A DNA stretch of 64,000 bases from Calothrix anomala FACHB-343. GTDB lineage: Bacteria; Cyanobacteriota; Cyanobacteriia; Cyanobacteriales; Nostocaceae. The position numbers and the translations under genes were made by a program. Below the pieces are notes generated by a model, which saw nothing but the letters and a program-made list of their open reading frames with translations, was not told the DNA's origin and did not search any database. The DNA lies in the NCBI RefSeq assembly GCF_014696435.1, contig NZ_JACJQG010000019.1, positions 57,409 through 121,408 on the forward strand, read 5' to 3'. This document shows, one piece after another, positions 54,066-56,469 of this stretch (position 1 is the stretch's first letter; the number at the start of each line of letters is the position of its first letter).

Positions 54066-55781
54066 GTTTCAATTCCTCATAGGGATTAGTGAAATTTCAA
54101 CTATGGGCTACTTCACCTTGGCTCTTTTGGTATCGTGTTTCAATCCCTCATAGGGATTAAGTGAAATTTCAACTCTAAACAGCTTGGGTTACATCAGCTT
54201 ATTAATGTTTCAATCCCTCATAGGGATTAAGTGAAATTTCAACGTTCAGATGCCAGTTTAGCCAAAAAGTTGCATACACGTTTCAATCCCTCATAGGGAT
54301 TAAGTGAAATTTCAACATTTCTGGGTCGTTCGCTTTGCCAAGTTTAGCTGACGTTTCAATCCCTCATAGGGATTAAGTGAAATTTCAACTGTGCAGGTGT
54401 CCAAGTTTCCCAACCAGGAGCATGTTTCAATCCCTCATAGGGATTAAGTGAAATTTCAACAAGGGTAGATACACCCAAAACATCCACACAAGTAGTTTCA
54501 ATCCCTCATAGGGATTAAGTGAAATTTCAACTCCAGGTTAATAATGCGATCGTTTCTGATTCCGCTTTGTTTCAATCCCTCATAGGGATTAAGTGAAATT
54601 TCAACTCCGTAGGGTCGCCAAAATCATTTAAGATTGCTTGTTTCAATCCCTCATAGGGATTAAGTGAAATTTCAACTGCTGCGTTAATGTCTCGGTCGTG
54701 GTGTGTTCCGCAGTTGAGTTTCAATCCCTCATAGGGATTAAGTGAAATTTCAACTTACATCTTTCTGGTTGGTTTTTGGTTTCGATTTGTTTCAATCCCT
54801 CATAGGGATTAAGTGAAATTTCAACCCCAGTGGCGTGATTGGCATGTGCCCAATGGGCGACAGGTTTCAATCCCTCATAGGGATTAAGTGAAATTTCAAC
54901 ACTCGCACCCAGTCACCTTCCCTGAACCGGGAAATAGTTTCAATCCCTCATAGGGATTAAGTGAAATTTCAACTGCTTCTTGTCCATATTCACCAAAGCT
55001 TTGGTTGGTAATTCGGTTTCAATCCCTCATAGGGATTAAGTGAAATTTCAACTCCGTGCAGATGCCGATACTAACCGCGCAGTGCAGATGTTTCAATCCC
55101 TCATAGGGATTAAGTGAAATTTCAACCTGAGGCTATTAATTCCCCCTGGCGGAATTCCTTGTTTCAATCCCTCATAGGGATTAAGTGAAATTTCAACCTT
55201 TGAGTGCATCAGCAAATTCCTTGGCTTTGATGCCGGCTGTTTCAATCCCTCATAGGGATTAAGTGAAATTTCAACACGGGGTTGCGACCGGAAGGCGTAA
55301 TGTGCGATCCGTTTCAATCCCTCATAGGGATTAAGTGAAATTTCAACTCTTTTCAAGGAACGCGTCATCAATGCTCAATTTTCGTGTTTCAATCCCTCAT
55401 AGGGATTAAGTGAAATTTCAACAAAAACATCATTATCTCTTCAAGTTAAAGAATAATGTTTCAATCCCTCATAGGGATTAAGTGAAATTTCAACATTTAG
55501 AAGCTGATTTAATCGCAGAATTATTTTGTTTCAATCCCTCATAGGGATTAAGTGAAATTTCAACTCCGCAGGGTAGTAGAAGATATTGAGGAAAATCTAG
55601 TTTCAATCCCTCATAGGGATTAAGTGAAATTTCAACCTGAACACCGCAAGTATCCAGAAGTAACTGGCACTCGTTTCAATCCCTCATAGGGATTAAGTGA
55701 AATTTCAACTGTACGCCCCTATAATCCCCCAGTAATTGTTAATGGTTTCAATCCCTCATAGGGATTAAGTGAAATTTCAAC
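54066..55781 (-). CRISPR. CRISPR array, 24 repeats and 23 spacers
   Basis: The 37-bp repeat begins GTTTCAATCCCTCATAGGGA and ends GTGAAATTTCAAC as written on the plus strand. Repeats start at 54066, 54137, 54207, 54280, 54353, 54424, 54495, 54569, 54640, 54718, 54789, 54864, 54937, 55016, 55090, 55161, 55239, 55311, 55386, 55458, 55528, 55600, 55673 and 55745. Spacers are 33-42 nt and all different. Read on the minus strand the repeat ends ATTGAAAC, the usual crRNA 5' handle, and contains the hairpin AATCCCT-ATG-AGGGATT. The repeat at 54066 is degenerate (one substitution, one deletion), as expected at the leader-distal end. Leader therefore at the high-coordinate side. No cas gene lies within the window. 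Repeat and spacer lengths fit type I or III. Confidence 0.97.
54677..54717 (-). other. CRISPR spacer matching a tnpB coding motif
   Basis: This 41-nt spacer read on the minus strand encodes NCGTHHDRDINAA in one frame. That is the diagnostic CGTxHDRDxNAA segment of IS200/IS605-family TnpB (zinc ribbon followed by the third RuvC-type aspartate). The crRNA would have the tnpB coding-strand sequence. Confidence 0.75.
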
Positions 55782-55920
55782 TGCGGAAGCTCCAAAGTTA
55801 ACTGATATGCAGTTTTCAAGGTTCGGTTGCGCGGATGGCGTAATCATAACATACGCGATAGAAAAAAAGCAAAGCTAAAAAAGCTGAAAGGCAGTCTGTA
55901 TAAGGCACGCGGGTGCCTGG
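55782..55920 (-). promoter_or_regulatory. Probable CRISPR leader
   Basis: The region immediately beyond the best-conserved end of the array, upstream of it in the minus direction. It contains CTTGAAAACTGCATATCAGT next to the first repeat and an A/T-rich stretch (GAAAAAAAGCAAAGCTAAAA on the plus strand) typical of leaders. Assigned by position and by the degenerate repeat at the other end; no promoter boxes defined. Confidence 0.5.
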
Positions 55921-56469
55921 ACAACAATTAACAGTTAAAAGACTTACAGAGAAAGAGTTTCACCGATTTTTCTGGTAACTTCAAATTTTACACCTACCCC
56001 TTCGCGCATTCTGCCTAGAAAATTGTCGGATTGGGCAAGGTTTAACTGTACTTCTGTAGGCTTGACTTTATTTTAAACAGTGTTTGCGGCACATCGATAT
56101 ATTCTAGAGGGCATGGCAATACCCATACGTGTCAACTTAAGCTCAAAACTTTTCTCTATCTCGTTTCCAGCCTCCGGCTGGAAATGCGTATTGCGAGGCT
56201 CCGCCTCGTCTCCTGAATAAATTGAGGCAGAGCCTCAGGATCATCGCTCCCACGCAGAGCATGGGAGCCAGTTAACTTTGCAACTAAAAGGGTTTCGCGT
56301 TAAGTTGACACGTATGGGCAATACCTTGCCCATACCATCTGTTGCATTCGTTTTTCAAACTGGTATCAAGATTATAGCTCTGGAGGAGAAAGGCGATCGC
56401 ATTTTCTAAAACTACTTAAAACTGAATCATTTCTAGCTGAATTCTATGCAGCCTCGTTAAAAATCGCTA
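55921..56469. other. Non-coding region holding a nested repeat
   Basis: No gene. The main content is the family-B repeat interrupted by the CCCATACG element (56081-56345). Confidence 0.5.
56131..56318. mobile_element. CCCATACG-ended MITE inserted in a family-B repeat
   Basis: Starts CCCATACGTGTCAACTTAA and ends TTAAGTTGACACGTATGGG. It is flanked on both sides by CAATA, a 5-bp target duplication. Joining the flanks restores GGCATGGCAATACCTTGCCC, the core of the family-B repeat (on the other strand). The interior carries GAGGCTCCGCCTC and CGCTCCCACGCAGAGCATGG hairpins and is unrelated to the interior of the 1447-1648 copy. Confidence 0.8.

Follow-up and report, generated by a model that had tools for sequence, protein, structure and literature searches.

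A CRISPR spacer matching tnpB of IS200/IS605-type transposons in Calothrix anomala FACHB-343, whose own tnpB copies are divergent

To judge from the available portions of two papers, CRISPR spacers against the tnpB genes of IS200/IS605 elements are already in print. In Clostridium botulinum group I and C. sporogenes, spacers match IS200/IS605-like tnpB on predicted conjugative plasmids; spacer matches to IS elements are described in that portion as very few, those found being tnpB, and the authors point out that IS200/IS605-like elements are themselves RNA-guided nucleases (PMC8865420). For the archaea, the accessible sections of PMC3285040 report an Acidilobus spacer with near identity to an OrfB gene from an IS200/IS605 element in Sulfolobus islandicus, the only cross-order match given there, and assign about 13% of archaeal spacer matches to mobile-element-associated genes, a class that comprises transposases, integrases, toxin-antitoxin and restriction-modification genes. 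An earlier note on the DNA analysed here described spacers against transposons as rarer than those against phages or plasmids, which agrees with the scarcity of IS matches in the Clostridium excerpt and sits poorly with the archaeal share of about 13%. A search of titles and abstract openings in the open-licence literature found no published cyanobacterial tnpB spacer. For the cyanobacterial type I-D system of Synechocystis, the part of PMC10212523 consulted gives the PAM as GTN.

The window, a stretch of 64,000 nucleotides from Calothrix anomala FACHB-343, carries a CRISPR array (Table 1) on contig C56 of a genome of 9,239,736 bases in 144 contigs. As in the Clostridium cases, one of its spacers matches IS200/IS605-like tnpB, although the host belongs to another phylum; plasmid protospacers were identified in that work as excerpted, whereas no exact protospacer was found for the Calothrix spacer. 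The Acidilobus spacer described in the accessible text likewise approaches identity with an OrfB (TnpB) gene of another lineage, in an archaeal host. With Synechocystis sp. PCC 6803, as far as the portion of PMC10212523 extends, Calothrix shares the kinds of effector and adaptation genes, and GTN is expected here by analogy; it differs in having five arrays on five contigs with apparently one cas locus.

Table 1. Positions, in window coordinates, of the array, its predicted leader side and the spacers discussed in the text
Feature	Position	Strand	Description
CRISPR array	54066..55781	(-)	23 perfect 37-nt repeats and one degenerate 36-nt repeat; 23 spacers
Degenerate terminal repeat, 36 nt	54066..54101	(-)	left (trailer, leader-distal) end
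tnpB-derived spacer, 41 nt	54677..54717	(-)	NCGTHHDRDINAA in minus-strand frame 3
Spacer C56_12, 42 nt	54974..55015	(-)	first 36 nt identical to the 36-nt spacer C82_16 (L085)
Leader side	55782..56021	(-)	240 nt align with the leaders of C60, C68 and C82

The array search covered repeats within 3 mismatches of the repeat of this array, GTTTCAATCCCTCATAGGGATTAAGTGAAATTTCAAC, and located five arrays, on contigs C56, C68, C82, C55 and C60, from which 22, 17, 25, 9 and 24 spacers were extracted, respectively (97 in total, the spacer adjoining the degenerate repeat, 54102-54136, being left out). The first 120 nt to the right of the array in the window share 69-82% identity with the corresponding flank of each of the four other arrays, and right flanks are 63-82% identical over all ten array pairs, the lowest of which include C55 with its interrupted leader. 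The 120-nt stretches beyond the opposite array end share 51-56% identity, compared with 52-59% for shuffled flanks. Conservation of the right flank, and not the left, shows that the leader lies to the right and that the crRNA strand is minus, the direction that had been proposed from the sequence of the window. The reverse complement of the repeat terminates in ATTGAAAC, a usual crRNA 5' handle. The tnpB spacer ranks 15th among the 23 when counted from the leader and was therefore probably not acquired recently.

Competing CRISPR systems were searched for genome-wide through cas1, which is present in a single copy (one match to PF01867) within a type I-D locus. This locus, a run of cas genes on C55 (L092), encodes Cas3d, Cas10d, Cas7d, Cas5d, Cas6d, Cas4d, Cas1 and Cas2d, and is complete by gene content for both the effector and the adaptation set. 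PADLOC scores are 1553 bits for Cas10_Id, 637 for Cas3d, 432 for Cas7d (Csc2), 362 for Cas5d (Csc1) and 496 for Cas6d, followed by 293 for Cas4d and 132 for Cas2d; Cas1 scores best on the Cas1c model (338, versus 318 on Cas1d). One cas locus apparently serves all five arrays. Between cas3d and cas10d lies a nucleotidyltransferase / HepT-like gene pair (L092:5551-6443), which is presumably of the toxin-antitoxin type.

An insert of approximately 481 nt (L092:15262-15742; C55:108261-108741) interrupts the leader of the cas-linked C55 array, and the DNA on both sides of the insert matches the leaders of the other arrays. At the left end of the insert, 148 nt share 86% identity with sequence upstream of a resident tnpB (L026), and the final 33 nt have at most 4 mismatches to a site near another resident tnpB (L028); these four changes can be read as compensatory substitutions in two base pairs of a hairpin stem. 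An 89% copy of the insert, also located after CTTAT, is present in a genome of the same genus (G012), where the surrounding DNA revealed neither a repeat nor a leader motif. The insert contains no open reading frame of at least 90 aa and, from these features, looks like a non-autonomous IS200/IS605-type element.

The tnpB spacer is bounded on both sides by perfect copies of the repeat. Its minus (crRNA) strand translates in frame 3 to NCGTHHDRDINAA, and the corresponding TnpB segment in relatives reads CPNCGTHHDRDINAA, which we take to be the zinc-ribbon end together with the last RuvC motif of TnpB, DRDxN. The TnpB reading frame, with its CxxC zinc ribbon and DRDxN, is kept in the spacer, and PF07282 covers the same region in the resident copies. 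By its sequence, the encoded peptide is the zinc-ribbon/RuvC segment of an IS200/IS605-type TnpB, as the earlier note had proposed, and real tnpB genes match the spacer at 38 of its 41 bases. The motif occurs in 1 of the 97 extracted spacers, and the other 96 are more than 8 mismatches away from every tnpB locus fetched, so that by either measure this remains the sole recognisable tnpB spacer among the 97.

Exactly the same 13 residues are encoded at eight tnpB sites (L001, L002, L003, L032, L033, L097, L098 and L113), and the mismatches between these sites and the spacer are confined to third codon positions, base 1 excepted. The mismatches fall at positions 1, 11 and 32 in L032, 1, 32 and 41 in L033, 1, 32, 35 and 41 in L097, and 1, 11, 14, 17, 29, 32 and 41 in the resident L001. 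Base 1, the middle base of the codon preceding Asn, is T in the spacer and C in all sites that are at most 12 mismatches away, which suggests that the source tnpB probably had a residue other than proline at this place; leucine stands before Asn in the resident tnpB genes L010, L069, L075 and L076. For the tnpB genes at most 12 mismatches away, the base-1 difference would be a seed mismatch.

Of 217 other family genomes searched at up to 3 mismatches, two contain tnpB genes that agree with the spacer at 38 of 41 bases, the closest found (L032 and L033); 387 other genomes of the same order, some of which belong to the same family, gave no match. The spacer is nearly identical to these tnpB genes over its full length, as expected of a tnpB-targeting spacer. 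A wobble-pattern scan of contigs identified four loci, in Scytonema sp. NIES-4073 (3 mismatches), Nostoc sp. FACHB-973 (4), Microseira wollei (6) and Fischerella sp. PCC 9431 (3). The Scytonema (L096) and Fischerella (L099) proteins and sites are the same as those of the two family matches, and the family genome with L033 is possibly one genome with Fischerella sp. PCC 9431. The open frame has 398 aa in the Scytonema-type copy versus 118 aa in the Fischerella-type copy, the shortened tnpB (L033 / L099) having an N-terminal part that continues in frame into the zinc-ribbon end.

Similar tnpB genes are also carried on cyanobacterial plasmids and in phages, as had been anticipated, and the best records of both kinds show 87-92% identity across 83-95% of the spacer. 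BLASTN with the 41 nt (E-value at most 10) returned 20 plasmid records with a best E-value of 6e-6, and in 13 of these the best place is annotated as TnpB, transposase or zinc-ribbon protein, while 6 have no listed feature at that place and 1 is an unannotated record. The plasmids include those of Trichormus variabilis and Aulosira laxa that are typed as conjugative in PLSDB. Among the 23 phage records (best E-value 1e-4), which include the Microcystis phages MaMV-DL01/DL02 and eight Bacillus phage records, 13 span at least 80% of the spacer; 6 of these are annotated as transposase or mobile element protein and 7 are hypothetical or without a feature, and both hypothetical sites that were translated (L117 and L119) contain the TnpB motif. 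Relatives of the Scytonema-type TnpB (33-72% identity) are encoded at thirteen IMG/VR loci, all of which differ from the spacer by at least 10 mismatches, and neither the exact 41-mer nor the wobble pattern gave any match in IMG/VR. No exact protospacer was found in any of the genomes, plasmids and viral sequences searched.

In Nostoc sp. FACHB-973 (L097) and three cyanobacterial plasmids (L114-L116, with 8-9 mismatches), the match is immediately preceded by GTC, a form of the expected GTN; GCC and AAC occupy this position in the two relatives with 3 mismatches. Of the motif sites, 11 of 22 external ones and 21 of 42 resident ones have GTN, counts that include three resident and two external rows seemingly unrelated to tnpB by peptide, none with GTN; with these rows removed, the figures are 11 of 20 and 21 of 39. 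The sites come from 20 of 27 external and 40 of 53 resident loci and, by the logic of the script, a locus lacks a site of its own when it duplicates a listed site, lacks the motif as written or is situated too near an end. The bases upstream of the match are largely fixed by the codon for the zinc-ribbon cysteine, TGT giving GTN and TGC giving GCN. Since half of the tnpB sites have GTN, its presence is weak evidence, and the PAM was dropped as independent proof because this codon sets the upstream bases and the sites are evenly split. The PAM position is compatible with type I-D but is not proof of it.

The genome contains 53 matches to PF07282, the C-terminal domain of TnpB, several of them in short open frames, and the loci of all 53 were fetched and compared with the spacer. 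The nearest copies, L001, L002 and L003, have 7, 7 and 9 mismatches of 41, respectively, and all carry GCC in place of the GTN that type I-D needs; elsewhere in the genome outside the array, no copy of the spacer was found at up to 3 mismatches. The risk of self-targeting raised earlier was therefore dropped, and the spacer is predicted to be harmless to the tnpB copies of its own host.

The reading that accounts for these results very probably is that the type I-D system captured part of an IS200/IS605-like tnpB and that its crRNA directs I-D Cascade and Cas3 against such genes while the resident copies are spared. The Cas4-Cas1-Cas2 proteins of the locus would have taken the spacer from the tnpB of an element most likely brought in by a plasmid or phage. 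Transcription from the right-hand leader would yield a crRNA with the sequence of the tnpB coding strand; this crRNA would pair with the template strand beside a GTN PAM whose G and T would sit in the TGT codon for the zinc-ribbon cysteine, and type I-D Cascade with Cas3 would thereby be guided to tnpB DNA. Resident tnpB genes would escape through divergence, with the closest copies also lacking the PAM. It is unlikely, by comparison, that the spacer came by accidental self-acquisition from a chromosomal tnpB of this lineage that was later lost or diverged. The abundance of resident PF07282 matches, three of which encode exactly the peptide of the spacer, would suit such an origin, as would the lack of a perfect resident target, which is expected if self-targeted cells survived. 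However, the three copies that share the peptide have GCC at the PAM position, and the nearest resident gene differs at 7 bases versus 3 in the closest external genes, which makes another lineage the better fit as the source.

Action of the crRNA on tnpB RNA instead of DNA, whether type III-like or through RNA binding by I-D Cascade, is highly improbable. The portion of PMC10212523 consulted does report that I-D Cascade can bind single-stranded RNA, but when the array is read from its leader side the crRNA has the sense orientation of tnpB mRNA, with which it cannot base-pair, so that only an antisense transcript would fit; RNA targeting was dropped for this reason. The match spans only 13 codons, and a chance likeness within so short a peptide was weighed by comparing the spacer with 80 tnpB-bearing loci (304,378 nt, both strands), where its best site has 3 mismatches of 41 while 100 shuffled spacers reach 14 at best and 16.5 on average. 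The resemblance to tnpB coding sequence is thus far beyond chance, and the E-values of the plasmid and phage matches, together with the annotation of most of the plasmid places as TnpB, transposase or zinc ribbon, also speak against coincidence, which was dropped as next to impossible. It is also very doubtful that the locus records an arms race between two families of RNA-guided nucleases, in which a type I-D guide would be aimed at the most conserved codons of TnpB, resident copies with the same peptide would be exempt through their TGC cysteine codon (GCC, not GTN), and TnpB-type elements would retaliate by inserting into CRISPR leaders, as the 481-nt relic in the C55 leader would have done. 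Selection is not required to explain GCC in the resident copies, because GTN is present at only 1 of the 6 external sites that differ from the spacer by up to 7 mismatches.

Other spacers were also examined. C56_12 and C82_16 (42 and 36 nt) have a common 5' end and different 3' ends, as would be expected had the protospacer been captured twice, each time measured from one PAM on its 5' side. Across 218 family genomes, this doubly acquired spacer matches only the two arrays of this genome, and BLAST returned only matches of 19-20 nt in unrelated organisms. Searches with three further spacers gave nothing or partial matches to Escherichia phages, and exact viral protospacers were sought for two other spacers with 0 matches. 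Altogether, four spacers other than that against tnpB yielded no convincing protospacer; the searches gave no match, partial matches to unrelated organisms, or only the arrays of this genome.

The tnpB spacer has the appearance of a routine record of defence against mobile DNA, and it leaves the knowledge of CRISPR targets unchanged. It provides a clean, checkable case in which a type I-D system would have recorded a tnpB-bearing element within a host genome that itself holds many TnpB-domain matches, and it illustrates a route by which such a spacer may be harmless to its host, through divergence plus the PAM.
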